From an uncultured Clostridia bacterium (GTDB lineage: Bacteria > Bacillota > Clostridia > Christensenellales > UBA1242): a stretch of DNA of 37,538 nt. Positions 599 to 24,479 of the stretch are shown piece after piece. The notes beneath the pieces are model-generated. The model was not told the DNA's origin. It was given only the letters and a program-made list of their open reading frames with translations, and made no database searches. The stretch is taken from positions 1 to 37,538 of the forward strand of contig CALWEM010000026.1 of assembly GCA_944377315.1 (NCBI GenBank), read 5' to 3'. Both the position numbers and the translations under genes were made by a program. The number at the start of each line of letters is the position of its first letter. Position 1 is the first letter of the stretch.

Positions 599-712
599 AA
601 ACATATAAAAATCACATAAAAAACAAGAAAAAACTGCAAAAAAATTAAAAATTTATAAAATTTATGTTTAAACTTTCAAATCTTTGTCCATAAAGAAGGT
701 ATGGAGGAAGAT

Positions 713-1736: not shown

Positions 1737-1801
1737 TTTTTGACAAATAAAGTCATAATTCGACACACTCCTTCATAAGGTAACTTATGGAGGATTTTTT
1801 T

Positions 1802-2248: not shown

Positions 2249-2278
2249 TTGACATTGCTTGCAAATATATTTTATAAT
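2249..2278 (+). promoter_or_regulatory. Perfect consensus sigma-A promoter of the giant gene
   Basis: TTGACA (2249-2254), an 18-base spacer and TATAAT (2273-2278) match both consensus hexamers exactly. The predicted start is near 2285, leaving a leader of about 66 bases. A 14-base perfect palindrome TTATTTATAAATAA (2279-2292) covers the predicted start site. TTGCAAATAT occurs in the spacer (2259-2268) and again in the leader (2325-2334), where it is part of the palindrome ATTTGCAAAT. These could be operator sites. Confidence 0.7.
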
Positions 2279-2351
2279 TTATTTATAAATAATACTCGAA
2301 TTTTCTGATTAATTTTATTCGCATTTGCAAATATTAGTTAAGGAGGCATTA

Positions 2352-2420
2352 ATGAAAAAAATCGCGTTTGGCTTTTTGACTTTGATGATGCTTTTTGGAG
2401 GTGTGTTTCTCTCTGCTTGC
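2352..2420 (+). other. Lipoprotein signal peptide and lipobox of the giant protein
   Basis: The signal has two lysines, a hydrophobic core and the lipobox LSAC, ending with Cys23 at codon 2418-2420. This directs Sec export, diacylglyceryl transfer by Lgt and cleavage by LspA, placing the mature N terminus on the outer face of the membrane. Confidence 0.92.
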
Positions 2421-5400
2421 GGTGAGAAAAAAATTTCACTTTCTGTTTCTTCAAACGAAGTGACCATCTCCACAAACGGACAACAAACCTATCAGGATAT
2501 TGTTGTCACTTTGAACGAGTCAGGTGACGGAATCAATGTGCAGGTTGAGTCGCAAAACGATGTTGTGAGTGTGACAACTCCAACTCGTTCTTCTCAAAAT
2601 GAATACACTTTCCGTGCCACTGCTTTGAAAAGTGGACAGTCGCGAATTCGTGTTTCTTCCATTGAAGATGCGTCAGTTTATGAAACCATCAATGTTCAAG
2701 TGGACACGATGCTTGAAGGTATGACATTGTCCGAAGATTTAATCAATGAAAAAGGACAAAGCGAACTTTTTGTGGTTAAAAATAGTGTTGAAGGAAAGGA
2801 TTTGACTTTTTCCAACTATTTCAATATTTATCCGCTTGATGCGAATGTGAAAGACATTGCTTGGACCTTCCAAGAAAACAATGAAACCACAATTTTGCGT
2901 AATGAACAAGTGGTGGCAGAAATTGTTGACAATCAAACTTTGTTTGTTTATGAAGATTATAATTCAAGCGAAATAACCCTCCTTGCTTCTTTTGTCCAAA
3001 TGCCAAGTGTGCAAGAAGAGATAACTTTCCAAGTGATTAATGATTCGACAATTGAAGAGTTCTATCTTGGAAACAGTGAAGAAGACAGAATCTTGGTCAG
3101 AAATGACCCAAATCAATCAAGAGTGAGTGGCCGAATTGTGGTTGACACTTTTGATGAAAATATGACAATGGATATTGTTGTTTACAGAAAATATCAAAAC
3201 GGAAGCATATATTTTCTTCCAGAAAAAGACTATGAAGATTATTTCTCACTCGACCAAGTGGTTTATAACTATGAAAATGGCAAGCGTGTTATTGATTTCA
3301 CAATTGACGCTCAAGTGGTGGAAGGACGAAAGAAATTGAGCGGTGATGTCTATGTTGCTTTCAATCTTGAATATAAACAATATGCATACGGAGTTTCCAC
3401 TGCCGAAAGTTACGATGATTATCTCAAAATTTCCACATACTTTGTGGCAGACACCATTCTTGTTCGGGATGAGACAACAAGCTCAATTGCCGATAAAACA
3501 ATTGACTTATATTCAAACTATGTGACCACAAATGGATACAAAGTTTTGGCCACTCTTTCACCAGATGATGTGGTTTTGAGCGACAATACATATCAAATCG
3601 CCATCGATAATATGGACAGAGACCCAAACTATTACATTAATATCTATCGCGAAAATGATTATGTTAATTATTTGAGTTTCACAAGATATGAAGATTCTTC
3701 AACTTGGCTTTCTGAACCAATTGAAAGTGGCACTTCAATATATTTGAGAGCAAGCAGTTTGGGAGAATATGGCAGTCAAACCAATTTTCCATTGAGATTT
3801 GTTGCCACTTCAAACGGCACGGCAACTGAAACTGTTTATGCCAATCTCTATCAAGTCACCGACAATGCCATTTTGGATATTTACGAATTGACGGTTGACG
3901 AAGCGACTGGTGAAGTTAGTGAAAACGAGTTTGCTTTTGACCAAGTGTATTACATCTCTTCCAGTGATAACTCAATGACGCGAGATTTCAATTTGCGCAT
4001 TAAAGGATTTTCTTCTTCGACTGGTTTGGACCTTGTTTACAATAGAAACAATTTTGACATTTCCTTCAAGGAAGTTGGAAGAAATGAAGATAAGACAAAT
4101 GTTGAAAATTCCTATGTCGATATTTTGGTGACAGTGAATGTTTTGAAGGAAGGGTATTCTGGTGGATTAAACTTTTCTTTCACTCACAAAACAGGTGCGA
4201 AAAGTGAAGCGATTTCAATTTTTGCATTTGCTCCACTTGAGAGTGCACAAGTGGTCAACAACAGTATCGGCTCAAACAATGTTTTCTATGACGAAACAAC
4301 TTCTCAAAGTTTTGTTGTGACAGGAGAAGGTGCTGACACTGTTGTCACACAAAATCCAAACCACACCACAAACGGAACTTTGTCCAAACTTTTGATGTCG
4401 GCTGGAACTCACATAAGTTTGAATCTTGAATATGACAATGCCACATTAAACTCCAATGAAGAAATGGCTGGCTATCAATTTATGTTTATGGATTTTGACG
4501 CTTTCAATGAAGTTAACCAAATGAATTTGGACTATATCGACAAATCCGATGAAGAAAAACAGGAAATTTTTGAAAATCTCAATCCTTATATTGATGCCTA
4601 TAACTATAACTTTTCAAGCAATGAAAACACTTATTTCACATATTCTGACGGCAAATTGAAGGTAAATGACAGCGAGTTTGTTGTTTATGTTGCAGTGATT
4701 TTCTATGGCTTTGATGAAGAACATAATGAATTTAATCTTATGAGAATTTTCAAACTCGAAAGTTTCTATCCAGTGACCTCTCTTCGAAGCAATATCAGTG
4801 ATGTGACTTTGTATTCTTTTGAAAGCATAAGTTCAAATGATGACAGGTCGCAAGTTAAAGTGTCAGTGAATTTGCGTCTTGACAAAGAAAAACCAACATA
4901 TAATGATTTGTCAAATTTCTCAATTTCATTAAGAAATGGTATTTTGAGCGTGAGAAACACCGATGAAGAACTTATTGAAAGAGATGACAATGGAAATATT
5001 TTGAGTGTGGGCTTGACACGCGAAACAATAATTGAAAACGATTTTGTGACCTTGACTGGATTTTCTCTTGTCAAATATGACCAAACAAGCACGGGTGAAA
5101 ATGTTATTGAGTTTAATATTCAAACAAAATCAACTCAATTTAATTTAAGTTGGGTGGAAATTGTCAACTTGAATTATCAACTTGAATATAACGGCACAAT
5201 TGTTTCAGATTTAAGCACAAATATCAATATCGACATTTTGAGAGCAGACCGTGTTGAAAATATCACTTGGGTGAACAGAACGGAAAACAGCGAAGTGTAT
5301 TTGAACATTGCAACAAATGATGTGACAGAACAATTCTTCACAATTTCCACATCGGTTTCACCTAACTATGCAGAAAACCGCAATTTGACATATTTCTATC

Positions 5401-8400
5401 AACCACACGATGAAGATTCCAGCGTTTTGAATATTGAAACAAACTTAATAAGCCAATCTTTCAATTTGACAATTGGTAACAGTGCAAAAGGTGGCTATGG
5501 ATATCTTTATATTTTGCCAGAAGATATGGTGAAAATTGTTGGCGGTGTTCGACAAATTGTTTATTACACTGTGGGCGACAATGGCGAACTTGACAAGACA
5601 GCGAAATATCTCAATTTCTCACAGATTGACACATATTACGAAAGTTTGCTTGACGGCACATATGTCAATGAAGATGGCGAAGTTGCTGGAAACTATTTCT
5701 TAAACAATGACAATGAAAAAATCTATTACAGCGACATCATTTTGAGAATTATGGTTATTGTTGCAGATGGTCAAAGTGAAGAAACTGCAATTCGTGTTTA
5801 CACTGAAGAAGATTTGAAGAATATGCAAAGCAATTTGTATTACAGAGTGATGAATAGTCTTGAGCTTGACGGCTGGACATCAATTGAAAACTTTTCTGGA
5901 ATGGTTTTTGGTCATACTGATGATGTGACCTTGACATTCACAAACAACAGTCAAACTTTCATCAACAATTTGACTGGAACAGTGAAAGACTTGATAATGG
6001 TTGGCGATGTGACTGGTGGTGGCTTTGTTGCCAATTATGTCCTTGACAACGGCGTTGTGGATAATATCACTGTTGATGTTAACTATCTTGAAAACAACTA
6101 TGCTCCAAGCACTTTGAAAGGTGGAGTGTATGTTGGTGACAAATATTATGCGGGCGGTATTGCCGGCGAAAATCGTGGCACAATTTCAAACTCAAAGGTT
6201 TATGGACTTGAAATCGACCTTGTGCAAGGTGGAAATTATCTCAACACGGTTGCGGGTGGTATTGCTGGAAATAACTATGGCAAAATTGATGCTTGCGGTG
6301 TGGAATTCTATAACTTTATTAGAGATGTGGAAAACGAGGCAGGCGAAGTGACGCAAGAAGAATACACCAACAAATTCACAGCGGAAATTGTGGGTGGTCT
6401 TGTTGGAAATGGCAGTTTTGTTGAACAAGGTAACGCAACAACAAAATACACTCAAATCTCCAACTCATATGTTTATGCATACAGTTTGCTGACTGACAAT
6501 GGCGTGGATGTTTCAACCTTTGATGGTTCAATCACAAATGTTTTGAATGGACAAGGTGACAATGTTATGGTGGGGGCATTTGTTGGCACACTTCAAACAA
6601 GCGACAACAGTAACACATATTTCAAACTCACAAATTCCTTTGCATATGTCGGACAACACACAATTGATAACAATTTTGGTATTGGCAGTGTCAGTGGCTC
6701 GGGAAGAAGAGAATATAAAAATTCATATATTTCATACCTTTCTGTTGTTGAAGGCGACACAAACACATATCAAATTCAAATGGACTACATTTTGTCCGGT
6801 CAAAGCGGTGGAACAAGTTTTGCAAAAGAAACCATTGTCTATGGCGAAAGTGTGGACTATTCCGATTTTGATGGCTCTGTTTGGGAAATCGCTGAAATTG
6901 ACGAACAAGTTAACTTTGGTTTTGCATATTTGAAAAATGTTCATCAAAATGTTTTTGTTTCAGTTGACCAAACCATTCAAAATGTGGAAGGCAAGATGAT
7001 TAATGCTGATGCTGAAAGCGAAAATGGCAGTGTCAAAGCGGGAATTTTCTTCCTTTATGAAGTGCAAGAAAACCTTGCAAACGATGGTGCAAAAAGCGAA
7101 CTTGAAAGAAAGAACACAATCAACATCACTGAACTTTTTGGTATCACAGAAAATGAAGCAAAGAGTTTGCTTTTGAGTGTGGACAGAATAAATTATATTG
7201 ATTTCACGACAAGCAGTTTGACAGCAAAAAGAAACAATCTTAACCTTGGTGAAACCATCAAACTCACTCTTCACAGTCGTGTTGATTTCAGTCAAGCAAT
7301 GACTTATGAAATTATGGTGGTAAATTATGTGCCAGAAGTCGTTTTGTCGGTTGATGAAAGTGTCTTGGGCGAAGGACAAATTTTAAACATTCAAACCGGT
7401 CAAAACAATCAAAAACGGGTGCAAGTTGTGCTCGACCACTCCATATATTTGGGCGGACAAGAATACACTTTGGTTAACGACAATGAATATGCCTACAGTG
7501 CTTCTTTGGACGAGATTAAGAATATTGATGAGAAAGGCGAAAAATATGTGACCGAAATTGTTTCTGAAAATGGAGTGAACTTCATCGCAAAAAGTGCCAC
7601 AAAGGAAAATATTGAAGCACTCATCAGAATTGAACTTAAAAAGTTGGCAAGCTATGAAAACTTTAGTGTGGCATTAAGTGATTACAGACAAAAGAATTTC
7701 TACATTTCGACATACTTGGGCGCAAACAGTGTTTCTGTGTTTGAAAAAGAATTGAACATTTCTCCACTTGAACCAGCAAATTTCAAAGTGGTGATTAATT
7801 CGGACAGCCAGGATGAAGACTTGGCACTCACTTTCACATACAATGGAAAAGATTATTTTGTCGAAGGTGGCAAACTTGTCATCAACGACAATTTGGTATT
7901 GGATGTTGAGTGGGAGATGAAGGAAAATGGCAATGAAAAAACTTTCAATGTTTATATGAATGTCAACAAGGAATATCGTCACAAAGTTGACAAAACATAT
8001 AACTTTGTGATTGGCGTCAATGCAAAAAGCCAAAAGAACAACAAAACATATCTCAAAACAATTGATTTTTCTGTTAAAAAACAAGGTATTGATAAGGTTA
8101 ATGTGACGGCATACACAATTGAAAGCAGAATAATCAACAATTCAAGGTGGTATTACACTCCAAGCACCACAATTTCATCGACATTAGTTCCAGGTTCGGA
8201 CAGTATTTTGGCGATGGATGTCAGCCCAATTTTTGCTCATTTTTCAAGAATTGATGTTTTGTATGATGTCACATCAAATGGAAATATCGGCACGGTGCAA
8301 ATAAGCCGTTTGTCCTATAATTCGACCTATGGCTACTATATCGACTCTTCCACCACCACAAATATTTCCACAGCCTCGGTTTCTGGACTTCGAATAACTC

Positions 8401-11400
8401 CGACCGACAATGACCTACAAAATGGTATATATTATTTTAGAATTAATGTTTCTTCAAGCTTTTCATCAAATAGTAGCATCAATTTGACCTTTAATTTCTA
8501 TGATGAAGATGAATTGGTTGCTTCTGACAGTTATAGCTATATCATCGATTACCTAAATTCAGCGACCATTCTCGTTAATGGGCAATCAAGTGTTATGGTG
8601 GCAAAAGGTGAAAGCGTTGAAGTGAGTATTTCCTTGGAACTTAACCAATCTTTGACAAACAACAGCATTCGTCTTGAAGGTGCTGGTGATTATATCACAT
8701 TGAGCGATATCGAAGAAACGGTTTCAAATTCGACAAGAAATTACAAAGCAACCATAAACACAAGCGTGCTTTCCACTCTGCAAGACGGCAATTCAACAGG
8801 TGTGTTCTATGTTTACGCGTCAGTTTCAAGATATGTGAATGGCGTTATGGACTATATTGAAAGTTACGCCACAATCTATCTTCTTGATTTCACGCTTAAT
8901 GAGAATGGCACAAAAATTGTCGGCTCGACTCAACAAGTGCAATATGGTAATGGCACTTATGACTCCTTTGTTTCATACATAAATGCTGAACAAACTTTGG
9001 CGTTCTCATATGTTTTGGACCCAGAAGAATATAACTTTGACAGCTCCAATGTCAATGAGTATAACGCTGTCTATGGCGAAAATGGGCTTATGGCAAAACA
9101 AACAGAATTTATGCGCAATGGCAGTTATCGTGATGATGTTGGTGGCTACTTTATTAACTATGAATATGATTCTGGCATCTATCGCGAAGTCCCAATTGAA
9201 GAGCGTTTGTTGATTATTGGAACAGATGATTCGGAAACTCCAATATATAATTCTCAAACTGGTGAGTTTTTGGAAAATGAAATTGTGGAATTTAGTTCTG
9301 GTGCAAATAGCACGGTGAAGATAAAAGGTCTTCGAATTGGCAGTATTCATATGCGTCTTGAAACTATTGTGATTTCTGGAAACAAGACATTTACACTTTT
9401 ATATGACTTTGTTATTACCATCAATGTGTGGTCAGATGAAGAAGTGCCAGTGCCAATCTATACGGCTGAAGAATTTTTGCGATATGCCGAAGGAAATCGT
9501 GATGACAATGGCAACACTTCAAGCGGTGATTATATCTTGATGAACGATATTGTTCTTCAAAACTACACTCCACTCGACACAACTTTCTTGAAATCTCTTG
9601 ACGGAAATGGTTATCAAATTTATATTGACAGTTTCAACACCAATGTTGACGGCACAAGTTTGAATATTGCATTATTTGATGAAGTTGTGGAAGGCACAAC
9701 ACTCAAAAATGTGCGAGTTAATATCTATAATGGTGGGCAGTTGACGGTGAATATACGAGATTATCAAAATGTCAATATTGCCGGCTTTGCTCTCACCAAT
9801 AATGGTATCATCTATAACTGCGAAGTTGTCGCATACTATGATGAGAACTTGTCGTCATCAAAAATTTCTTCAAGCACAGGTTTGGTGGTTAACTTTGTTA
9901 AAGGCACAGGCACTGACAATGTGTATTTGACTTCACAAGATGTGGAAGCGGGAGATATTAATATTGTCGGCTTTGTTGTCGAAAACAACAATATCATCAC
10001 AAACAGCCGTGTTGGTGGCGAAAGTGTCGGAATAATTGTGGAAATTGACGAAACAAAATATTACAGCGAACTTTCTCTTCCGCTCTTCACCATTCGCGGT
10101 CAAGGAACAGTCAATGGTTTTGTTCAATCAAACTCTGGCACAATTTCCGCTTCCTTTGTCAATAATGTTCAGATTGAAAACTTGATGAATTCAACTTCAT
10201 CAGTAACATCAGGATTTGTGAACAACAACTCTGGCGAAGTGCACACATCTTATGTTCAAGGTGCAAATTTCGCAGATGATTTCTATTTTGACGCTTCTTC
10301 CATTGTTTCAACTGGAAGAGTGGCAGGCTTTGTTTATAACAACACCGGTTTGGTGAAAAATTCTTATGTCAATATTGCTTTTGAAGTTGATGCAACAAAG
10401 AGTTATTTATCTGCGGGCTTTGTTTATCAAAACAGCGAAGTGGCAGAAGTTCTTCTTTGCTATGCTGCTGCAAAAATGACCAATTCGGATATCAATGAAA
10501 TGAGCTTCTCCGGCGTTAATGAACGCGGACAAGACTTGAATCTTAATGAAGACGGAATAAGGTATTCGTATTATTACAGCAAGGAGCGTGTCGACAAAAC
10601 TCCACAAGGAAGTTATGACACGGGTGCTTTTGCCATCACTGATGTGGCATATGAAGAAAGTTATTATCGTTTCAGTTTCTCTTCAACTGACGGAGCGTAT
10701 GACGGCATTTGGACAATGACCAATAAAAACAAAAACGAAAATGATGACGGCACAAAAGTTATCACTTTGGTTTCTGCAAATCATATCGCATTCTCCAACA
10801 GAGAAATTATCTATAATGGTGGCGACAGCGATGATTATTACTATCTTCCAACACAACTGACTGACATAAACACCTATCGCGTGCTTGATTTTGCCAATGG
10901 CTCAATAAACAACCCAATCATCATTCGTTCTGCTGCCGATTTTGCCAAGGCGACAGGAAAAGCACAAGAAACAGAGATTTCTTCCTATAAACAATATTAC
11001 ACAAACACCACGGTTTTTGGAACTTATCGACTTGTCAACGACCTTGACTTCTCTGAAATTGACCAAGATGTCACTGGTGATAACAATATCATTTTGACAA
11101 CCACAACAAAATCATTCTTGGGAATTTTGGATGGTAACTCTTTCACCATTTCAAACATCAGTTTGGGCGCATCCACTCAAGTTGACAACTATGGCTTGTT
11201 CAGAGAACTCAAAGATGCCACAATAATGAATGTTGATTTCAAAGTCACATCTGTGCATAATGCAAATGCCAACATTGTCGGTGCATTGGCTGGAACGGCA
11301 GTAAACACAAGACTCATCGGACTTTCACTCTCTCCAAACGATGACAGAGTCGATGATGAAAGCGTGCAAGCAATTTCCATTTTGGGAAATAATATTGTTG

Positions 11401-17400: not shown

Positions 17401-20400
17401 GGGCTGGAATTGTCGGCGGTGTTGTTGGGCAATTCACCGGTGAAAATGACAATGGCAGAGATTATGGACTTAAAGAGACAACTTTTGCTAATGCACAAGA
17501 ACAAACTGGTGAGAATAATTCGTCTGAAGAAACGACAAATGTCAATGTGTCAATAATAAACGGAGAAATAACCTACACTTCATTTAACGGCTCGATTGTG
17601 ATGAAAAATTCAAACATTTCTGCCAATGTAACCCATAATACACAAATAATCAATGAGACTGATGTGTATTATAAAGTTGACAAGAAAAATTTGACAACCA
17701 CGGGCTTGACAATAGAGACAACTCACACTTCAAACACTTCATCGTCAGAAGATGATAGCACTGGGAAAGATATTTCAAATGCAGGAGAAAAACCAAAATA
17801 TTCTGGAGAATTAAATGCTGTTGCAGGTGGAATTGCTGGATATGTTGAGTCTGGCAACATTGAATATTCATATAACAATGCCACAATAATGAATCAATAT
17901 TATGGCACTGTCACACAAAGCTCAAGCTTTGCAATAAGAAATTTGGCAAGTGGTGGAATTGTTGGATATCAGAAAGAAGGAAGTGTTGACAATTCAATCA
18001 ACACAGGCTATATTGTTTCTGGAAATAACAGAAATGAAGGTGTGGCTCTTTCTGGCGGTATTGTTGGATATTCCAAAGGGTCTGTTTCAAATTCAATCAA
18101 CGATGCCAAAGTGCAATCGGTGAGCTATGTTGACCCAAGTTATTATAATATTAATTTGGACAAATCAAAGGGATTGACTGCTGGTGGTGATAAAATTAAA
18201 TTTGTAATTACAATTGAATATAATATTACGACAACAATTGTAGAAAATGCAAGCGGTGGACAAGAAAAAGATCCAGAGTATGAGATGCCAAGACTTGTTC
18301 ACGCCTATGGCATTGGCTATTTCAATTCGCAATCTCAAAAAACTGCCGATGATCAATCAAACGCCAACCTTGATGCTGAAGAAACCATCAACGATGGCAA
18401 CATTGGTTACACAGTGAGAAAAATCGAGCCAGAACGCACGGCTCAACACTATGGTGGCGGAAGTTCTTTACCTACAGGCACTCTTGATGACTATCAAGAA
18501 AGTTATGACTATTATGTCGGCGAAGGTGAAACACAAGACATTCGTGTGAGTGCATATGACGCATATGGTTTCCCAAGCCGTTTGAATTATTACTATGAAT
18601 ATAATCTCACAATTCAAGGTTTTAAACATAATTATAGTAATGATTATGGTGAATTTTTAGGCTTTAGCATAAGTGATAATACGCCAAATACAACAAGTGG
18701 CGATGCGAGAGCATCAAAAATGAGTAATGTTGATTATAATGATCTTTATCCGGGCGGAACAACAAGCTATTATTTCTCCTTGCCGTTCTATAGCACTGAA
18801 ACTGACACTAATGGTGAGAATTATAATAATGGCAACTCATATGACGAACTTGTGGAGGATGCAAGTGGACGCAACAGCAACATAAGTGCGACAGGAAACA
18901 ATCTTGATGAAAGTGCTCTTAAGGAAAAATATAATGAGATTAACGAATATAGAGAGAAAGAAGAAGACGAAAAGTCAATCAATGTTGCCGGCGAAATATA
19001 TAACTATGTGAACAGCGGTGATGAGTTTATTCAATACACTGGTGGTATTGCTTTGTCTGGTCGTGCCCAAATAACTCTTCCGACATATTCATATAGAGAT
19101 GAGTTAGGCGAAAATGTAGATAACGACATCCAAATGATTCCAAGAGCGGTGGCGTCAATAAAATTTAAGTTGCTCGGAAACGATGGAAACGGATGGAAAG
19201 ATCTTGGAATTCAAGCAATGGGTGCAAACACGGAAATTATGAAAGACGGCGATTTATATTATCTTGACTATGAAGCATATTTCAACAAGACCGAGTTGCA
19301 AGCGCTGGCTGGCAAGGACATCGGTTACAACTCACTGCAACTCACAGCAGATTACACCTTGACATATGAAGTGCAACAATCAATCACTCTCACAAAGAGA
19401 AATATGGAAAAATTCAACATAAATAAGGGTGAAGATGGTGTTGACTATGGTATTCAAATAAAAATGGTGATGGAACAAGGCAATGCCTATAACTGCTATT
19501 CTTTGGGTGGCTTCTTGCAAGACTTTGGTTATGCACAATACTATCAATCCTTCATTCCATATGGTGAAAATGAATCTCCACTTGCCTTCAATGTGAACTT
19601 CACAAACAACGAATCTGGCGAAGTTTACTATCTAAACAACAAGGGTGTGTTGACGCAAGGGAATGGACTTGATGACGAAAATGCCACAAAGCTTCTTTTG
19701 TGGTATAATGGGAGCAATGAGAGCGAGTTATCATCATATATTGGACTTATCAATCTTGGACAAAATTCAGCAACAAAACGCGACAGCCTTTTGGAAGAAC
19801 TTGGGAATAAATACACAATGAATCTCACTTTCTATGCACAAGGAAGCGGTGAATTTGACAATATTATTGGTGGTGCAACAGAATTTGCCAGTGAACAAAC
19901 GATGAGCAAAACATTCGCTTCTCACATTTTGTCAAGCAACGCCGCCACGAGCGATTATCCAGAAGGGTTTGTTTGGTATGATGCTGTGGAGATTGTTAAT
20001 GATACCAATAATAATATGGCCACGGTGAAAATTTATGCTTCCACCATTGACAAAGCAAATCCAAGCGAGATTGATGTTACAATGACTGTTACCAATCAAT
20101 CTGGTGGTAATGTTAACACAACTTTTGAATTTGTTAAAGGTGAAAGTGGTTACACGATCGAGAATGCAACAGGGACTATTAGTAACTTTGCAACATATGA
20201 AGTGACAATAACTGACACAACATTTACATTCACTTTCACTAGAAGTGAGAGCAGTAGCAATCCGCCACAGGTGGTCGATAATTCTGTTGTAATCACATAT
20301 TATGACAACAGCGTGACATTCAACAAAACAGAGTTGGTTGGACTTGAGTTGTCAATGGGTGACACGCCAGTGCAAGGAAAATATGAATATGACGGAACTG

Positions 20401-23400
20401 GTGTGTATGTGGAGAACGAACAGGGCAAGTTGGAGAGTGCAGGGGAAGGTGAATACACTATTTCTACGAGTGGAAACAATATTATTGTCACAAAAAATGC
20501 CTCTGGAGCGGTCACTCAAACGGTATATTTGAAATATACTTTTGATGGAATTAGTGAAGGCACAACAGGAACATTCCAAATTGTGAGTGGATCTGGTGGT
20601 AAGGTTGTTTACATCAACACTGAAGGGTTCTATTACACATTGGAGAGCGATGAAGATGGGTATCCAACGGACAAACTTGCAGAAAACGAAGATGGGAAAA
20701 ATTACACCGAGATGCAAGACACAATCACTCTTGAAGACGGCTCAACCCTCTCAACAAGATATCAGTTTTATAAGATAAGTGGTGTGAACAGTTATCGCGG
20801 AGTCACATTGAACTCTTCAAATTCATATATCATCACACAATATTCAATGGGCAATGCAAAAGTTTATAAAATTGTCCAAGAAAATCAAGAAAAAGTAATC
20901 GCCACAATCTATAATTTAAGAGAATCAAACGCAAATGAGGTGGAAGTTGGTGCAGTATCGTATTGGGAAGATGGCGAAGGTGTTGATTATGTTGTGAAAG
21001 ATAATAAATACTATATTTCAACATATGCTGTTGTAGGCGAAAATGGTGTTCGAGAATTTGAAAGTGAAAGCAAATGGGAAGATGTAACGAAACAATATGG
21101 AGATCTTGAGCAGTATTTTCAATTTGCTGGATTAATAAGTGTTTCATATCAAGAAGAGAACGACCAAGTAGATTATGGCTTTAATTTTCAATATTTGGTA
21201 AATCTAACTTCTTCAGATTTAGTTGGTTTTGATTATGAATTCAATGAAGTAACTGGAGTAATAGAGACTCCGGTAGATGGACATTATTCTGAACTTAATG
21301 AGACCAGAACCAATCTGGGAGAAGGAAAAGTCACTCAAAACACTTTTTCAATAAATTCAGATGGCACATTCAAAATCCAAGGAGAAACTTATGTAATATA
21401 TGAAAAATCTTTGACAATAAATTTGGGTTCGCTTGTTAATGTTCCTAATATTGAATATGAACAAAGAGGAGACAGTCCTGATATCGTTGATGTTATTAAA
21501 GATGGAGAAAAAGTCGGATACATCAAAGTAAATTATAATGAAGCGGGAGATAAAATCACGGGTGGAACAATCTATTATTCAAATGGAAATGCAGTTTCAG
21601 GCTCTAGTGTTGAAGCTACATATGATGAAGAAGGTAATTTAACAAGTATTAAATATAATGGTATTGAAAAAATTATTGGAACGGTTGAAAGTACCGAAAG
21701 TGAATACATTCGATATGTGATTAGATCTAAATCTGATTATACAACTATAAATGGTAAGGAGACATCAAAATATCACGAAATAGTTATTGATATACCTTTC
21801 ACAAGTATTTCTTCTGTGTTATATGAGAAAAATTCTCTCTTGGTGGCAAATTCAATAAGTGCAAATTCAGATAGTAGTTATGCCGCCAATACTGCATCAG
21901 TGAGATTCACAGACGATAGTTTGAGAAGTTATATTGGCAAAGAAGTGGAATTTGCTTCTTCAAACTATGGTCCAAGTGAAAGAGAACAAGAAAATGCACT
22001 CTCTTATGGCTCTTCGTCAATTGATTACACTTTTGATTTGAAAGTTCCGGCAGAGAATGCGTATGTTAACATCACTTCATCAAACAGCGATTTTGAGCTT
22101 GAAGATACTGAAGTTGATGATGATAAAAAAGATGACAACACTATTTACAAAACAATTTCAATCGACACAACTAAAACTAGTGTTCCGTTTGGTGAACACG
22201 AAGGGGATGTGTTGTTTGAATTTGGAATTCAAAACAGCAATCAAGAAGAATATGAAATAACTTCTGATGTTGCTGATGGTGATGCTGACAAAATTGATTT
22301 AAGCAATGTTAAAGATGGCAATATCATCATCAACAGCAATATATATGTTGACGATATGTCAATCACAATTGGAATGGAAGTGCGTGGTTATGATCATATT
22401 GTCACACAAAAAATTTCGCTTTCCACTTTTGATTATGCTGTGAAAGTGAGCAGTAGTGGGAAGAGCAGTGGAAAATTGCAAGACACAAACTTTGCAATTA
22501 TGGGTGATGCGAAAGACCGTGGACTTTACAAGAGTGGACAAAATGTTTTTCTTGTCGAATCATCAGGTGCAAAAGACATACGAGTCAAAGATATTGAATT
22601 CTATGGTTCATTAAGACAAATTGACCCAATCACAAATGCTCAAAAAACTTCTCAAGGAGAATCTTCAGGGACAATCACAGCAATTATGGCAACAGGAAAT
22701 GTTTCAAACATCACTTCAAATCTTTCAATGATAGGCAAAGATGGTGAGTCGGCTGACAGTGTGACAGAATCCACTCTCAAAAGTTCAGGAGAATCGGTGA
22801 ATGTTCTTCTGCAAGCATATGAAGACAACATCATAACCAACAAAAGCATTATTGTCAGCGGTAATGGCGGTAATGGTAGCAATGGTGCTGATGGTGTTAG
22901 ATCAGAAATTGGAAGTTCAAAGGTTAAAGGTGAAAATGGTGTGAATGCAGGAGATGGTGGAACTTTCGGAGGCATAAATAATAACGAAAAAGGAATCACA
23001 ATAAATGGTGCTGATGGCACTGCCGGAAATGGTGGAAATGGTGCTGACGGATTGAATGCAACCAAGAAAACTGAAGGAGTATATTCGCAGAGCGGTGACT
23101 CATATAACTATAAGTCAGACAAAACTGGTGGACTTGCAGGTGGCGGTGGAGCCGGTGGTAACAGCGGTGAAACTAATAAGAAACCTGGTCAAACCAACAG
23201 ACAATACAAAGATTTACCAGGAAGTGGTGGAACTGGCGGACTTGGTATGTATTATACTTCAAGTAGTAATTATGAAGAAGAATATATGCAAAATATATCT
23301 GATTATTCGACTGATGGTAATGCAACGGGTTATTCAGGAGCGAAGTTAATACAATCAAATTATAGTTCTTGGATAAAAACTTCTGGTGGTGGCGGAACAG

Positions 23401-24479
23401 CTGGCGATTGTGAAGATACAGACACAGAATCAGGAACAGCTGGCGATTGTGAAGATACAGACACAGAATCAGGAGCAAATGGCAAATTTGTCACAGCAAG
23501 TGCTTCGCATTATTTGAGAAGAGGTTATAATGTTTACAGAGAGAACAAAACTTCAACTCCAGGTTATTATTGGAATTATAAATATGGTAATCAAGGTGGT
23601 GAAAGATTGTTTGGGAATCTTCAAATGACCTCAACATTTTCATATTATGGAACAACCCCAGAAGATACGGGACCTTGGGACAGAGAAAGCAAATATATTC
23701 CAGAATCAAGTGTAAAAGATTATTATTATCAGGAAAATGCTGCTCTTGCGGCAATGAATATCGGAATTATGGTTATAATGGGGGGATTAAAATCCTTGCC
23801 GTGGGGAGTGATCGCAGTAGGTCTTGGAGCAATTGATGTGGTAATAGCTGCTGGTTTTCTTGCTGCTAAAAACACAGGAATGGTTTGGGGAGAACGAGAT
23901 GTAGATTTCTTTGCGAGCAATGATGATGATAAAGGATTTTGGGATGGTATATTAGAGGATTTAGGTGGTAATGCACAAATGATTATAGATATTATAACAA
24001 CACTTGGTGGTTTTGATTATACTGAAAAGCCAACTGTTTTTGAAGGGGGAACGGAATATTTTAGTGATGGTGGAATAAATGACTATTGGTGGTTATATAG
24101 TGAGAAGAATAAAAAAAATAATGGTAAGGTTTCTGATTTTGCAGACGCGTTTAATAATTATTTAAACGGCATTAACAACAATAGGTATTATAATCGAGGA
24201 TGGAACAAAAATCCTTGGGAAGATAATTTCTATGGTGGTGCTGGCGGTGGTGATGGCTCTGGAACAAAAGGCAATGGTGGAACATCATACACAAAAGAAA
24301 TCTATGGTTATTCAAGGCAAGATGAAGGAAATATTATGTTAAACTATGATGTTTCAACAACAAATGGCTACAAGTGCTTTTTCACAAGAAATGATATGGT
24401 GACGTCTGCTGGAATTTATGGTGACGCTGGAAAAGGCGGAACTACAAGTGGGCTTAGCCAATTAAACAATATTATATAA
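2352..24479 (+). CDS. Giant 7,375-residue surface lipoprotein with GLUG repeats
   Basis: One uninterrupted reading frame. The start at 2352 is preferred over an upstream TTG (2325) because AGGAGG (2341-2346) is correctly spaced and MKKIAFGFLTLMMLFGGVFLSAC is a textbook lipoprotein signal with Cys23 as the lipidated residue. The domains in order, by approximate residue, are: Ig-like/beta-rich 24-1140; GLUG cassette 1140-1530; Ig-like 1530-2365; GLUG cassettes 2367-5373 in five blocks; beta-rich unknown 5375-6830; Gly/Asn-rich 6830-7050; and a C-terminal region with a hydrophobic hairpin at 7130-7172. No LPXTG signal, catalytic motif or S-layer homology domain was seen. I count only nine cysteines including the lipobox. 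GLUG motifs are known from adhesins and other large surface proteins of Gram-positive bacteria. I infer an extracellular, lipid-anchored, mostly beta-solenoid fibre; the ligand and role are unknown. A RadC-like gene starts 16 bases downstream with no terminator between. Confidence 0.93.
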   Translation: MKKIAFGFLTLMMLFGGVFLSACGEKKISLSVSSNEVTISTNGQQTYQDIVVTLNESGDGINVQVESQNDVVSVTTPTRSSQNEYTFRATALKSGQSRIRVSSIEDASVYETINVQVDTMLEGMTLSEDLINEKGQSELFVVKNSVEGKDLTFSNYFNIYPLDANVKDIAWTFQENNETTILRNEQVVAEIVDNQTLFVYEDYNSSEITLLASFVQMPSVQEEITFQVINDSTIEEFYLGNSEEDRILVRNDPNQSRVSGRIVVDTFDENMTMDIVVYRKYQNGSIYFLPEKDYEDYFSLDQVVYNYENGKRVIDFTIDAQVVEGRKKLSGDVYVAFNLEYKQYAYGVSTAESYDDYLKISTYFVADTILVRDETTSSIADKTIDLYSNYVTTNGYKVLATLSPDDVVLSDNTYQIAIDNMDRDPNYYINIYRENDYVNYLSFTRYEDSSTWLSEPIESGTSIYLRASSLGEYGSQTNFPLRFVATSNGTATETVYANLYQVTDNAILDIYELTVDEATGEVSENEFAFDQVYYISSSDNSMTRDFNLRIKGFSSSTGLDLVYNRNNFDISFKEVGRNEDKTNVENSYVDILVTVNVLKEGYSGGLNFSFTHKTGAKSEAISIFAFAPLESAQVVNNSIGSNNVFYDETTSQSFVVTGEGADTVVTQNPNHTTNGTLSKLLMSAGTHISLNLEYDNATLNSNEEMAGYQFMFMDFDAFNEVNQMNLDYIDKSDEEKQEIFENLNPYIDAYNYNFSSNENTYFTYSDGKLKVNDSEFVVYVAVIFYGFDEEHNEFNLMRIFKLESFYPVTSLRSNISDVTLYSFESISSNDDRSQVKVSVNLRLDKEKPTYNDLSNFSISLRNGILSVRNTDEELIERDDNGNILSVGLTRETIIENDFVTLTGFSLVKYDQTSTGENVIEFNIQTKSTQFNLSWVEIVNLNYQLEYNGTIVSDLSTNINIDILRADRVENITWVNRTENSEVYLNIATNDVTEQFFTISTSVSPNYAENRNLTYFYQPHDEDSSVLNIETNLISQSFNLTIGNSAKGGYGYLYILPEDMVKIVGGVRQIVYYTVGDNGELDKTAKYLNFSQIDTYYESLLDGTYVNEDGEVAGNYFLNNDNEKIYYSDIILRIMVIVADGQSEETAIRVYTEEDLKNMQSNLYYRVMNSLELDGWTSIENFSGMVFGHTDDVTLTFTNNSQTFINNLTGTVKDLIMVGDVTGGGFVANYVLDNGVVDNITVDVNYLENNYAPSTLKGGVYVGDKYYAGGIAGENRGTISNSKVYGLEIDLVQGGNYLNTVAGGIAGNNYGKIDACGVEFYNFIRDVENEAGEVTQEEYTNKFTAEIVGGLVGNGSFVEQGNATTKYTQISNSYVYAYSLLTDNGVDVSTFDGSITNVLNGQGDNVMVGAFVGTLQTSDNSNTYFKLTNSFAYVGQHTIDNNFGIGSVSGSGRREYKNSYISYLSVVEGDTNTYQIQMDYILSGQSGGTSFAKETIVYGESVDYSDFDGSVWEIAEIDEQVNFGFAYLKNVHQNVFVSVDQTIQNVEGKMINADAESENGSVKAGIFFLYEVQENLANDGAKSELERKNTINITELFGITENEAKSLLLSVDRINYIDFTTSSLTAKRNNLNLGETIKLTLHSRVDFSQAMTYEIMVVNYVPEVVLSVDESVLGEGQILNIQTGQNNQKRVQVVLDHSIYLGGQEYTLVNDNEYAYSASLDEIKNIDEKGEKYVTEIVSENGVNFIAKSATKENIEALIRIELKKLASYENFSVALSDYRQKNFYISTYLGANSVSVFEKELNISPLEPANFKVVINSDSQDEDLALTFTYNGKDYFVEGGKLVINDNLVLDVEWEMKENGNEKTFNVYMNVNKEYRHKVDKTYNFVIGVNAKSQKNNKTYLKTIDFSVKKQGIDKVNVTAYTIESRIINNSRWYYTPSTTISSTLVPGSDSILAMDVSPIFAHFSRIDVLYDVTSNGNIGTVQISRLSYNSTYGYYIDSSTTTNISTASVSGLRITPTDNDLQNGIYYFRINVSSSFSSNSSINLTFNFYDEDELVASDSYSYIIDYLNSATILVNGQSSVMVAKGESVEVSISLELNQSLTNNSIRLEGAGDYITLSDIEETVSNSTRNYKATINTSVLSTLQDGNSTGVFYVYASVSRYVNGVMDYIESYATIYLLDFTLNENGTKIVGSTQQVQYGNGTYDSFVSYINAEQTLAFSYVLDPEEYNFDSSNVNEYNAVYGENGLMAKQTEFMRNGSYRDDVGGYFINYEYDSGIYREVPIEERLLIIGTDDSETPIYNSQTGEFLENEIVEFSSGANSTVKIKGLRIGSIHMRLETIVISGNKTFTLLYDFVITINVWSDEEVPVPIYTAEEFLRYAEGNRDDNGNTSSGDYILMNDIVLQNYTPLDTTFLKSLDGNGYQIYIDSFNTNVDGTSLNIALFDEVVEGTTLKNVRVNIYNGGQLTVNIRDYQNVNIAGFALTNNGIIYNCEVVAYYDENLSSSKISSSTGLVVNFVKGTGTDNVYLTSQDVEAGDINIVGFVVENNNIITNSRVGGESVGIIVEIDETKYYSELSLPLFTIRGQGTVNGFVQSNSGTISASFVNNVQIENLMNSTSSVTSGFVNNNSGEVHTSYVQGANFADDFYFDASSIVSTGRVAGFVYNNTGLVKNSYVNIAFEVDATKSYLSAGFVYQNSEVAEVLLCYAAAKMTNSDINEMSFSGVNERGQDLNLNEDGIRYSYYYSKERVDKTPQGSYDTGAFAITDVAYEESYYRFSFSSTDGAYDGIWTMTNKNKNENDDGTKVITLVSANHIAFSNREIIYNGGDSDDYYYLPTQLTDINTYRVLDFANGSINNPIIIRSAADFAKATGKAQETEISSYKQYYTNTTVFGTYRLVNDLDFSEIDQDVTGDNNIILTTTTKSFLGILDGNSFTISNISLGASTQVDNYGLFRELKDATIMNVDFKVTSVHNANANIVGALAGTAVNTRLIGLSLSPNDDRVDDESVQAISILGNNIVGGVVGIVIGDSKLNDITVTDIDVASRYYDNSKTITYNDRYTGDTLRELIYNGSSLGSAVKYLSYAGGIAGYVDIYKYIGDDYVQYSTQTDLTDYNVVSIKALDSVDIYGEVAGGLFGYLGKSLMAYDLGIELDADMALNNPSYITSKNLFAGGIVGESYAGLYAVYAKYSTTLQKTIEEGMYNYYNGGTSERGQLSIFSYTALDTKHPGYYNNPLYIGGIVGYAKAGYVTIAYNKLNVVSNVKNNEINYQTEAVGGIVGYINSEYRYDSDFINNKVSISYYLNQTYFSGVIYSENTADAGGIIGQVNVDSDIALNKVNSIPYYDASRSLENVYSLIAGFRNDSEEDNREFPNNLYLLDSRNGYHNVVNNAQSSVFGNTRMSVAVTNQFLVDAKTTEEVTSDNTETYIKGQTTKETLATISNGYVPILEIESIKNLATIEAQHSSMSSFFLHNDWDETRWEHEADEIFPDIVLYPKLEVLFLDADERSIADVLAQISTDRPNATVVVRGRVNQDSPASGYSDVDLRTYLKKNPDISLKEFGGTFVSYSNYMNSSDEGILTEVVYQNIGNNTINVIGGDAGDEVGLILSANDVLFDSTAEGFTLDGINIYVANEDSESAGTGESDLSTLELDGPIITEKLENANIIDVTVFFNGDLNYTLESSEGNGVLANVAKSSSFQNINFVFRYKSENNNQKNPQMNLNVKATTGGSSSRKFGLIVGESEQSSVYSLNTISNVYLSSEPTQTMGNIVDQSENIKLEVKITNDNRISTSGTGSLNKNSLYFGFLVGNVFVNSGASSLPLNFGMTNLTDDTISGINMILEGAENQNAEESGYGEVYLGGYFGNANLTEVTIVSTGSTPMSSLIRNFNIVQKVNIEELNLGLGFGTLTGQGQMTVAYSTPSGLDITGGLYQIVGVTTGIGQNENGVNIGSFAGASRFNINLSTILNVEFEVLGDQPNEIVLHNEFTSSETQVDIDVYDKQTDPSQEGEDGTVSGENPNRSVSGIYSAYEFGHPSDDNTNEVNNNVWVAKGDKQTAVETYKTNAETNIGTFIGLMNAGTFSFSQITFSELSDVQIKNENKNETNAKTVNVGAIGKVSGGSMTMANSTAKYNATNYFVETDGTANVGGLIGNGTLTNFNVGSYMYGGTVVSFAKTINFGGLAGNVELKASGLLQEIVYGGTLKNFIKEDDKTIVAGGVIGTIKNSGYLNIGSSSGNIKGAYSYGDVFVNYDDEQDENNEGKIIKRTLDKIAFGGVIGEVVAGNEGNGKEGNNGALYILKSYSLATLYNDRLPKGGLNAAQYANNAFVGMNSDLVNIGGNNAENYYSSGVTLSYQYMENNRNIDVSYGFNDDNYYGYSSNEISGNASENNTLNGKISSDDGSGIVEVMREMVGKYNSDIKFDLGSKLNPIEINNSTSFAGISSSDDIKHMKMKYYYISKDFETSNRIEGELNNVVIVGNGKTITLNSTQDPEKSGVTGGTTMGLFENIGTAPDSYTAISGIVVDMDFNFVINKNDENSEDPLTFAGLVNNAGMSEDNAGTDRSIIIYAVGATGSVEFGGKGYVDFAGLVGNMYTGMLSNSYVDLDIFYHAGYGLDDGNYYPKSTIKAVFGTGDGIVDVFNTFANGQVKSYVPSNIYTFNSASEESGNIQITNSYSVMQVVTEDYGYGVAYNIDNFQGNISLSYYSDYSGNIGTKTTATTQANGKTIYTTTKETGGGTKALVNQLSIGFNDENKVMQKINISKGDIYSQWFYSPFRNNGYGTTGFVYLRNTTAYSRVQTGISDDVIQTSDGDKSKAYRTYEYAKLSEEELATLNSRDGTVNGNERDYFLAITNVGKFSQIQDLESSGSGLTITGNSFQNCKFFLRYDINLSDLGNNGDDAWNYINNDLGTDSQIVVIDGQDHLVEFENSAGLFGTVYANIENLRIINHKEFSTNNKEFSTPNGKSSYLYGVLAGAYTGSLINVSVQGDISVNVEKNPGLYYIGGVAGQFTGTMSSVESIVTISADYGAGIVGGVVGQFTGENDNGRDYGLKETTFANAQEQTGENNSSEETTNVNVSIINGEITYTSFNGSIVMKNSNISANVTHNTQIINETDVYYKVDKKNLTTTGLTIETTHTSNTSSSEDDSTGKDISNAGEKPKYSGELNAVAGGIAGYVESGNIEYSYNNATIMNQYYGTVTQSSSFAIRNLASGGIVGYQKEGSVDNSINTGYIVSGNNRNEGVALSGGIVGYSKGSVSNSINDAKVQSVSYVDPSYYNINLDKSKGLTAGGDKIKFVITIEYNITTTIVENASGGQEKDPEYEMPRLVHAYGIGYFNSQSQKTADDQSNANLDAEETINDGNIGYTVRKIEPERTAQHYGGGSSLPTGTLDDYQESYDYYVGEGETQDIRVSAYDAYGFPSRLNYYYEYNLTIQGFKHNYSNDYGEFLGFSISDNTPNTTSGDARASKMSNVDYNDLYPGGTTSYYFSLPFYSTETDTNGENYNNGNSYDELVEDASGRNSNISATGNNLDESALKEKYNEINEYREKEEDEKSINVAGEIYNYVNSGDEFIQYTGGIALSGRAQITLPTYSYRDELGENVDNDIQMIPRAVASIKFKLLGNDGNGWKDLGIQAMGANTEIMKDGDLYYLDYEAYFNKTELQALAGKDIGYNSLQLTADYTLTYEVQQSITLTKRNMEKFNINKGEDGVDYGIQIKMVMEQGNAYNCYSLGGFLQDFGYAQYYQSFIPYGENESPLAFNVNFTNNESGEVYYLNNKGVLTQGNGLDDENATKLLLWYNGSNESELSSYIGLINLGQNSATKRDSLLEELGNKYTMNLTFYAQGSGEFDNIIGGATEFASEQTMSKTFASHILSSNAATSDYPEGFVWYDAVEIVNDTNNNMATVKIYASTIDKANPSEIDVTMTVTNQSGGNVNTTFEFVKGESGYTIENATGTISNFATYEVTITDTTFTFTFTRSESSSNPPQVVDNSVVITYYDNSVTFNKTELVGLELSMGDTPVQGKYEYDGTGVYVENEQGKLESAGEGEYTISTSGNNIIVTKNASGAVTQTVYLKYTFDGISEGTTGTFQIVSGSGGKVVYINTEGFYYTLESDEDGYPTDKLAENEDGKNYTEMQDTITLEDGSTLSTRYQFYKISGVNSYRGVTLNSSNSYIITQYSMGNAKVYKIVQENQEKVIATIYNLRESNANEVEVGAVSYWEDGEGVDYVVKDNKYYISTYAVVGENGVREFESESKWEDVTKQYGDLEQYFQFAGLISVSYQEENDQVDYGFNFQYLVNLTSSDLVGFDYEFNEVTGVIETPVDGHYSELNETRTNLGEGKVTQNTFSINSDGTFKIQGETYVIYEKSLTINLGSLVNVPNIEYEQRGDSPDIVDVIKDGEKVGYIKVNYNEAGDKITGGTIYYSNGNAVSGSSVEATYDEEGNLTSIKYNGIEKIIGTVESTESEYIRYVIRSKSDYTTINGKETSKYHEIVIDIPFTSISSVLYEKNSLLVANSISANSDSSYAANTASVRFTDDSLRSYIGKEVEFASSNYGPSEREQENALSYGSSSIDYTFDLKVPAENAYVNITSSNSDFELEDTEVDDDKKDDNTIYKTISIDTTKTSVPFGEHEGDVLFEFGIQNSNQEEYEITSDVADGDADKIDLSNVKDGNIIINSNIYVDDMSITIGMEVRGYDHIVTQKISLSTFDYAVKVSSSGKSSGKLQDTNFAIMGDAKDRGLYKSGQNVFLVESSGAKDIRVKDIEFYGSLRQIDPITNAQKTSQGESSGTITAIMATGNVSNITSNLSMIGKDGESADSVTESTLKSSGESVNVLLQAYEDNIITNKSIIVSGNGGNGSNGADGVRSEIGSSKVKGENGVNAGDGGTFGGINNNEKGITINGADGTAGNGGNGADGLNATKKTEGVYSQSGDSYNYKSDKTGGLAGGGGAGGNSGETNKKPGQTNRQYKDLPGSGGTGGLGMYYTSSSNYEEEYMQNISDYSTDGNATGYSGAKLIQSNYSSWIKTSGGGGTAGDCEDTDTESGTAGDCEDTDTESGANGKFVTASASHYLRRGYNVYRENKTSTPGYYWNYKYGNQGGERLFGNLQMTSTFSYYGTTPEDTGPWDRESKYIPESSVKDYYYQENAALAAMNIGIMVIMGGLKSLPWGVIAVGLGAIDVVIAAGFLAAKNTGMVWGERDVDFFASNDDDKGFWDGILEDLGGNAQMIIDIITTLGGFDYTEKPTVFEGGTEYFSDGGINDYWWLYSEKNKKNNGKVSDFADAFNNYLNGINNNRYYNRGWNKNPWEDNFYGGAGGGDGSGTKGNGGTSYTKEIYGYSRQDEGNIMLNYDVSTTNGYKCFFTRNDMVTSAGIYGDAGKGGTTSGLSQLNNII
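2421..5760 (+). other. N-terminal Ig-like, beta-rich region of the giant protein
   Basis: The first ~90 mature residues (SLSVSSNEVTISTNG... then a strand ending SGQSRIRVSS) have the look of a bacterial Ig-like (BIG) domain. What follows continues as alternating hydrophobic strands rich in Asn, Ser, Thr, Tyr and Asp without a motif I can name. No repeats are obvious at DNA level. Confidence 0.5.
5775..6940 (+). repeat. GLUG cassette 1 of the giant protein
   Basis: It opens with the header typical of such regions (AIRVYTEEDLKNM, then a 'relationship to wild outline' strand FSGMVFGHTD). It continues with GLUG-type repeats such as GGIAGENRGTISNSKV, GGIAGNNYGKIDACGV and GGLVGNGSF. Each repeat is expected to be one short beta hairpin or solenoid rung. 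Confidence 0.75.
9450..10890 (+). repeat. GLUG cassette 2 of the giant protein
   Basis: The header is PIYTAEEFLRYAEG, followed by YILMNDIVL and LKSLDGNGYQIYI, the classic lead-in. Repeats then run AGFALTNNGIIYNCEV, VGFVVENNNIITNSRV, NGFVQSNSGTISASFV, SGFVNNNSGEVHTSYV and AGFVYNNTGLVKNSYV. This block uses GF(V/A) in place of GG(I/L), a subtype distinct from the other cassettes. Confidence 0.8.
10905..12500 (+). repeat. GLUG cassette 3 of the giant protein
   Basis: The header NNPIIIRSAADFAKATG is followed by TYRLVNDLDFSEI and SFLGILDGNSFTISNISL. Repeats include AGGIAGYVD, AGGLFGYLG, AGGIVGESYAG, IGGIVGYAKAG, VGGIVGYIN and AGGIIGQVN. Spacing between repeats is long (30-60 residues), with tyrosine-rich inserts. 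Confidence 0.8.
12840..15590 (+). repeat. GLUG-like cassette 4 of the giant protein
   Basis: This is the largest block and the most divergent. Recognisable repeats are LGGYFGNANLTEV, IGSFAGASRFNI, IGTFIGLMNAGTF, VGAIGKVSGGSM, VGGLIGNGTLTNF, FGGLAGNVELKAS, AGGVIGTIKNSGY and FGGVIGEVVAG. The lead-in (SIADVLAQISTDRPNATVVVRG) differs from the other headers. Confidence 0.65.
15597..16680 (+). repeat. GLUG cassette 5 of the giant protein
   Basis: The header KLNPIEINNSTSFAGI is followed by KYYYISKDFE and VVIVGNGKTITL, then GLFENIGT, FAGLVNNAG and FAGLVGNMYTGMLSNSYV. It is shorter than its neighbours and ends in the strand GTTGFVYLRN. Confidence 0.65.
16855..18470 (+). repeat. GLUG cassette 6 of the giant protein
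   Basis: The header FLAITNVGKFSQIQDL is followed by KFFLRYDINLSDL and IVVIDGQDHLVEF. Repeats then run AGLFGTVYANIENL, YGVLAGAYTGSLINV, IGGVAGQFTGTMSSV, VGGVVGQFTG, AGGIAGYVESGNIEYS, SGGIVGYQKEGSVDNS and SGGIVGYSKGSVSNS. A 7-residue tandem duplication lies at its start (17164-17205). Confidence 0.75.
17164..17205 (+). repeat. 21-base tandem duplication
   Basis: ACAAAGAATTTTCGAC occurs at 17164-17179 and again at 17185-17200, a 21-base period that duplicates KEFSTNN as KEFSTPN. The frame is kept and the second copy has diverged slightly at its end. Confidence 0.75.
22855..23510 (+). repeat. Glycine/asparagine-rich segment of the giant protein
   Basis: The stretch has dense runs such as GNGGNGSNGADG, AGDGGTFGG, ADGTAGNGGNGADG and GGLAGGGGAGGNSG, interrupted by charged spacers. 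It may form a glycine-rich helix bundle or a flexible linker. No collagen-like strict G-x-y periodicity is kept for long. Confidence 0.7.
23394..23471 (+). repeat. Perfect 39-base tandem duplication
   Basis: Two identical 39-base units lie at 23394-23432 and 23433-23471, duplicating GTAGDCEDTDTES. The identity suggests a recent slippage event inside the glycine-rich segment. Each unit carries one cysteine and a cluster of acidic residues. Confidence 0.9.
23739..23867 (+). other. Hydrophobic hairpin near the C terminus of the giant protein
   Basis: Residues about 7130-7172 form two hydrophobic stretches (AALAAMNIGIMVIMGG and WGVIAVGLGAIDVVIAAGFLAA) separated by LKSLP. They are glycine- and alanine-rich enough to be tightly packed membrane helices. 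Roughly 200 residues follow, rich in Trp, Tyr and Asp, with a second glycine-rich patch. Confidence 0.7.

Follow-up and report, generated by a model that had tools for sequence, protein, structure and literature searches.

The stretch of DNA analysed here (the window, 37,538 nt) is the whole contig C26 of a MAG of the clostridial family UBA1242, whose bin (G000) measures 1.01 Mb and is 98.5% complete. It carries a giant gene encoding a predicted lipoprotein with a calculated mass of 810 kDa, a pI of 4.3 and only nine cysteines. This single gene accounts for 2% of the ~1-Mb genome and lies within the conserved gene order spoIIQ-acpP-spoIIID-giant-radC-uvrB-uvrA. The features of the locus are the following (window coordinates; residues are those of the giant protein):

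701-1267, forward strand: M23 peptidase (SpoIIQ-like), conserved upstream neighbour (PF01551, 9e-21; synteny)
1509-1736, forward strand: acyl carrier protein, conserved upstream neighbour (PF00550, 6e-18; synteny)
1787-2059, forward strand: SpoIIID, conserved upstream neighbour (PF12116, 6.9e-31; synteny)
2249-2278, forward strand: sigma-A promoter of the giant gene, TTGACA-N18-TATAAT (12/12 match)
2341-2346, forward strand: Shine-Dalgarno sequence AGGAGG, 5 nt upstream of the ATG
2352-24479, forward strand: giant lipoprotein gene, 7,375 codons, ATG start, single open frame
2352-2420, forward strand: lipoprotein signal peptide, lipobox LSAC (residues 20-23) followed by G, predicted lipidated Cys23
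2430-5801, forward strand: Ig-like beta-sandwich string, residues 27-1150, proposed wall-spanning stalk (AlphaFold2 model, fold matches)
5949-6611, forward strand: first GLUG-like block, residues ~1200-1420, with GG(I/L)(A/V)G-type motifs at 1267, 1301, 1347 and 1407 (weak Pfam Glug match)
9534-10661, forward strand: right-handed beta-helix A, residues 2395-2770, within the stretch of highest conservation (AlphaFold2; pectate-lyase-like folds)
10893-12176, forward strand: GLUG-type beta-helix B, residues ~2848-3275 (AlphaFold2; IgA1 protease fold matches)
13869-15071, forward strand: GLUG-like block, residues ~3840-4240 (internal profile match to 3229-3328, best E 2.5e-9)
16749-18191, forward strand: GLUG-like block, residues ~4800-5280 (internal profile matches to 2858-2974 and 3232-3336)
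18849-22451, forward strand: fast-evolving distal region, residues 5500-6700 (lowest conservation)
23394-23474, forward strand: 39-bp segment perfectly duplicated in tandem, within the C-terminal coding part, the sole such repeat found
23742-23870, forward strand: hydrophobic segments, residues 7131-7173; the two nearest relatives look hydrophobic there
24496-25233, forward strand: RadC, conserved downstream neighbour (PF04002, 1.5e-14; synteny)

Given the base composition, the probability of a stop-free run of 7,375 codons is ~10^-246, and the remaining five frames across the same interval contain between 258 and 755 stops each. Long tandem repeats able to mask an assembly collapse were not found in the gene. 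An earlier note on this DNA had described an intact frame with a lipobox, a ribosome-binding site and a consensus promoter, encoding a protein of ~0.8 MDa under strong selection. The start signals, the frame and the mass were all recovered from the sequence. The closest relatives found (G098 and G101) carry giant frames of 7,387 and 7,349 codons, to which the window giant is 55% identical at the amino acid level over ~6,900 aligned residues. Nucleotide identity at codon positions 1, 2 and 3 was 66, 73 and 43-46%, a pattern that is a coding signal and reveals purifying selection over the full length of the gene. Identity to these relatives peaked at residues 2001-3500 (66-69%) and reached its minimum at residues 5501-6500 (34-37%). 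Alignment of 19 orthologues (A2) showed conservation up to about residue 5500 and variability beyond it, with somewhat better conservation near residues 6800-7000; divergence is rapid over the last 2,000 residues. A frame of 30,488 residues in the relative G029 was discarded as an artefact of masked N runs.

Cys23 is invariant in the 19-sequence alignment. Among the 67 loci that include the start region, 63 presented both the lipobox pattern and a start codon. As for the other four, a lipobox was recognised by eye in two (L115, LSAC; L147, FYAC), a third is cut by the contig end and preserves only part of it (L150, AAC), and the fourth exception is the 5′ end of L123. Genome G000 encodes both Lgt and LspA, no sortase was recognised in it, and the giant, which ends in SGLSQLNNII, contains no LPxTG sorting signal. 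Lipid anchoring at the N terminus, also part of the earlier description, gains support from the lipobox, which each intact N terminus examined was seen to carry. These features support the prediction that the giant is a Sec/SPII lipoprotein with Cys23 fixed to the membrane. We also considered whether a membrane hairpin at the C terminus generally provides a second anchor, and rejected this, as the hydrophobic segment was not found in most orthologues.

The spacer of the giant promoter, 18 nt, is one nucleotide longer than the optimum of 17. When the 240 bases upstream of each orthologue were searched for TTGACA-N16-19-TATAAT, a sigma-A-type site with at most one mismatch appeared in 58 of 62 orthologues, compared with 1.6 expected from shuffled sequences. 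The upstream regions of the neighbouring genes at the same loci, against which the strength of the giant promoter was judged, showed a site of this quality in 7 cases only. This conserved near-consensus promoter argues for strong vegetative expression of the giant. A GGAGG-type site also precedes the start codon in most orthologues.

Gene order is widely conserved as well. In most assembled relatives the giant is preceded by the spoIIQ-like M23 gene, acpP and spoIIID, and followed by radC, two small membrane-type proteins, uvrB and uvrA; the upstream block adjoins the giant in other genera too. In several relatives, such as G004, G028 and G032, the locus has lost the upstream block and spoIIID is found at another place, but radC-uvrBA still adjoins the giant. 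The loss of the block in one group of relatives indicates that the neighbourhood of the giant is old and not obligatory. The RadC copy adjoining the giant differs between relatives. In the window, a second RadC-family gene (34143-34868) forms with the first a pair that flanks the uvrB-uvrA block. A small putative lipoprotein with an LAGC signal, unassigned to any family, is encoded at 32444-33112, and is found near MBL, aldolase and radC genes in several relatives.

Structure prediction with AlphaFold2 covered residues 1-1150 and 2395-3300, that is, ~2,050 of the 7,375 residues. The first model (pLDDT 81.8, pTM 0.42) consists of a signal helix and a series of beta-sandwich domains whose relative placement is not fixed. 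Its best fold matches were S-layer proteins, invasin/intimin-type proteins and Ig-chain proteins (InvD, InvE, FdeC, SbsB, SbsC and Sap among them), with Z scores of 8-11 and one or a few domains matched in each. A Z near 8 is weak for any single family; the Ig-like class, by contrast, is consistent across many matches. The second model (pLDDT 84.5, pTM 0.87) comprises two right-handed beta-helices. Helix A resembles polygalacturonases and polysaccharide lyases (Z ~15, 5-14% identity). Helix B matched the IgA1 protease structure 7uvk with a Z of 26.2 (3.1 Å over 270 residues, 21% identity) and 3n6z with a Z of 23.8, the next fold group falling near Z 15. The beta-helix matches come from VIA-align re-alignment; Foldseek comparison of the 906-residue beta-helix model with the PDB gave nothing at E below 0.001, and a PDB sequence search with profiles A1 (built from the alignment of the most conserved part, residues 2395-3300) and A2 gave zero matches.

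Outside the modelled parts, comparison of the profile with itself related blocks near residues 4081-4240 and 5121-5280 to residues 3229-3336, and the GLUG-like block at ~3840-4240 is related to helix B through its internal profile match. GG(I/L)(V/A)G-type motifs also occur at residues 4992-5234. Because these blocks are related to residues 3229-3336, duplication probably built up the rod. Pfam and NCBIfam scans returned no family above threshold in the giant. The Pfam GLUG model (PF07581) reached 15 bits, against a cut-off of 20.5, in one 1,500-residue piece, and found nothing in the other pieces. The assignment of the giant to the GLUG proteins thus holds for the beta-helix fold and the GG(I/L)(V/A)G repeats but not for the Pfam model. 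The models, with their Ig-like string and beta-helices, support the proposal that the protein is elongated, at least in the parts covered.

Profile A1 matched 281 of the 309 genomes of GTDB family UBA1242 (176 of 190 when only good-quality genomes were counted), with orthologues in 38 of its 42 genera. The ~9% of genomes lacking a match may be incomplete MAGs or cases of loss or divergence. Orthologous frames are mostly of ~4-8 kaa and free of internal stops, and some of the shorter ones sit on short contigs. With the N-terminal 1,000 residues as query, an orthologue was found in 29 of 61 genomes, all of one genus. Across a class-wide sample of 393 genomes, full-profile matches were confined to UBA1242 members; other Clostridia gave GLUG-level matches of roughly 90-220 residues. 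Matches in a scan of public genomes were uncultured gut Clostridia, including Candidatus Caccopulliclostridium gallistercoris (contig DVOJ01000004.1), whose genus is placed in UBA1242 (PMC8035907). The coordinates of its match are identical to those in genome G080, a member of the window's family, which was identified as UBA1242 on this ground. A phage origin was considered and discarded: tblastn found no relatives of the giant in viral contigs, and fold matches in the viral library were mostly generic beta-helix matches. The split of an orthologue into separate genes, named in the earlier note as a possible refutation, was looked for and found in none of 19 assembled orthologues; the exception among these checks, the 5′ end of L123, may reflect a contig or sequence break. 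Homologues with the same neighbours, which the note had proposed to seek in related genomes, turned out to be widespread. The giant is a near-universal, family-wide protein of UBA1242 with a conserved core, lipobox and neighbourhood, and its description as a singular oddity was too narrow, all the more so as this genome encodes at least three giant lipoproteins.

The two further giants of G000 measure ~3.6 kaa each, and the three genes together amount to ~43.6 kb, 4.3% of the genome. The second (L182, 3439-14184, reverse strand, contig C19) is a 3,581-residue frame with GLUG motifs, related to the window giant in both profiles. In G000 and G098 it has a VirB4/TraG-like ATPase gene (L182, 14322-17093) on one side and rpoB on the other, and four more relatives keep one or other of these flanks. 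Inspection by eye of the G000 and G098 loci revealed no other type IV secretion genes, and the idea of such a cluster was dropped. The third (L183, 4359-15128, forward strand, contig C18), a 3,589-residue frame upstream of a TypA-like GTPase gene, has no GLUG motifs and resembles the window giant in its first 44 residues only. In addition, there are at least eight multi-copy GLUG proteins of ~0.9-1.6 kaa (L155, L156, L157, L158, L159, L161, L163 and L164); a C-terminal domain (FSDLVADLLGGY...RDVGSNL) is common to most of them, and a lipobox-like signal was noted in several. A genome of another UBA1242 genus (G273) encodes two giant GLUG lipoproteins (L190-L191 and L192-L193), with frames of 7,036 and 5,475 residues and 35 and 26 GLUG-like motifs, respectively.

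UBA1242 has been described as lacking biosynthetic pathways and standard uptake transporters, those for sugars, amino acids and peptides being reported missing, and has been proposed to consist of obligate symbionts or parasites, a partner dependence that others inferred from the genomes (PMC12306168). The genome paper names no contact machinery and makes no mention of giant proteins. The window encodes at 33211-34131 a class II fructose-bisphosphate aldolase (PF01116, 6e-84), an enzyme reported missing from UBA1242 (PMC12306168). Since the cell apparently needs the metabolites of others, the most economical role to propose for the giant is that it attaches the cell to a partner or to mucus, and its near-universal presence, often in the same chromosomal place and under its own strong promoter, makes it the best candidate for touching other cells. 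We infer that it acts in adhesion, and consider it somewhat probable that it serves this genome-reduced bacterium as an elongated contact adhesin tethered by lipid. In such a mechanism the giant would be transcribed from its own strong, conserved sigma-A-type promoter, Lgt and LspA would fix Cys23 to the membrane, and the Ig-like string would carry the rest of the protein through the cell wall. About ten Ig-like domains, at an estimated ~4 nm each, would reach ~40 nm, a span sufficient for crossing a Gram-positive wall. The beta-helices would form a long rod, whose repeated faces may bind, along with the variable tip, the surfaces or glycans of other cells, and the bacterium would in this way be kept in contact with a partner supplying metabolites. 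It counts against this reading that beta-helices occur in enzymes and structural proteins too.

A bolder version, possible yet doubtful, would make the giant the dedicated attachment organ of a whole family whose members live on gut bacteria as obligate epibionts or parasites. We suggest with equal reserve that such an organ, having arisen independently, would be the lipid-tethered Gram-positive counterpart of the giant adhesins found in Omnitrophota, Patescibacteria and Nanohaloarchaeota, and, just as tentatively, that the window giant may work with the two smaller giants to hold the partner cell.

The main rival to the adhesin reading is a structural coat, in which the giants and the smaller GLUG proteins would make up the main surface layer, tethered by lipid and standing in for an S-layer or capsule. 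A near-universal protein with its own strong promoter would suit this role too, and so would N-terminal domains matching the S-layer proteins SbsB, SbsC and Sap and the company of at least eight further GLUG proteins and two more giants. Exposure to phages or immunity would agree with the rapid evolution of the distal part, and the coat would then protect against phages, lysins or host defences and not bind a partner. However, a protein of 0.8 MDa would be costly as a lattice unit, no S-layer anchoring domain was recognised in the giant, and its great length would suit reach better than covering. We regard both the coat and its protective role as unlikely.

The likeness of helix A to polygalacturonases and polysaccharide lyases, and of helix B to IgA1 protease, could also point to an enzyme that degrades, or binds and cuts, polysaccharide or glycoprotein in a pectate-lyase-like or IgA-protease-like manner, feeding the cell. 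This we judge improbable: enzyme families at threshold are missing in Pfam and NCBIfam scans, the HExxH metalloprotease motif is absent in 19 of 19 orthologues, and for helix A the fold alone is shared, at the low identities given above. The GLUG part of IgA1 proteases is itself a separate beta-helix domain and on its own no sign of protease activity. Moreover, UBA1242 is reported to lack the standard sugar, amino-acid and peptide transporters (PMC12306168).

The position of the giant directly after spoIIID and the spoIIQ-like gene, an adjacency conserved across many genera, raises the question of whether it belongs to the spore programme, for instance in the spore coat. Indeed, among G000 and 20 relatives, Spo0A was found in 21 of 21 genomes and SpoIIID in 20 of 21, despite genome sizes of ~1 Mb. 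Against this, the giant has its own conserved vegetative sigma-A-type promoter, and one genome (G319) has a giant and no detected SpoIIID. The functional link with sporulation is further weakened because spoIIID has moved away in the relatives mentioned above, where the giant stays beside radC-uvrBA, and we find a spore role very improbable. Finally, even though the evidence consists of MAG assemblies, we can practically dismiss the possibility that the frame arose from misassembly or belongs to a decaying gene whose product is not a single protein, as independent assemblies of many species hold orthologous frames of 5-8 kaa and the codon-position signal runs along the whole length.

Read as a contact adhesin, the giant offers a concrete, testable contact candidate for UBA1242, an uncultured lineage that is widespread in the gut, and metaproteomes and metatranscriptomes already available from gut samples can be searched for its peptides and transcripts. 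As a bacterial giant whose orthologues extend over dozens of genera, largely in synteny, it also makes it possible to study how such proteins evolve, with a constant core and a fast tip.

We compared the giant with the known systems that resemble it. Giant1-5 of Apilactobacillus kunkeei are likewise extracellular proteins of 3,000-8,000 residues, with beta-solenoid domains and an elongated predicted build, and occupy much of a small genome, 6% versus ~4.3% for the three giants here (PMC12863079). According to their description, they are encoded by five consecutive genes, are confined to fructophilic lactic acid bacteria, and have an N-terminal beta-solenoid followed by further C-terminal domains, with no mention of a lipid anchor (PMC12863079). 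The UBA1242 giant, in contrast, spans most genera of a family, and has a lipid-anchored N terminus, Ig-like domains first and internal GLUG-type beta-helices. SPEARE of Nanohaloarchaeota also reaches thousands of residues, is mostly extracytoplasmic, belongs to partner-dependent cells with reduced genomes and has been proposed to act in attachment; it is anchored by a transmembrane segment and includes domains of the serine-protease, laminin-G and restriction-enzyme-like kinds (PMC6642349). None of these domains appeared in family scans of the UBA1242 giant. Omnitrophota, small-celled and with host-dependent traits, have frames of over 20 kb too, proposed to serve adhesion or as a coat, which are poorly conserved and often have many transmembrane helices (PMC10066038), unlike the single lipid anchor and the one family-wide orthologue found here.

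Smaller proteins share parts of the architecture. Gram-positive IgA1 proteases (7uvk, 6xjb and 3n6z) have a fold like that of residues ~2848-3275 (Z 23-26, 18-22% identity), but they belong to the M26 family, whereas the giant lacks HExxH and only a little of its length is of GLUG type. An N-terminal string of Ig-like domains is shared with the invasin/intimin-type and S-layer proteins named above; in the giant, scans gave no Big_2 or S-layer family at threshold, and neither an outer-membrane barrel nor an SLH domain was recognised. The serine-rich repeat protein (SRRP) of L. reuteri (5nxk), a beta-solenoid, gave a weak Foldseek match (E 1.1). No description of the UBA1242 giant was found in the open literature, and subscription papers may hold one. 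The features compared do not support membership of the A. kunkeei, SPEARE or Omnitrophota groups: in its way of working the giant resembles the giant surface proteins already known, yet it forms a family of its own that has no name.
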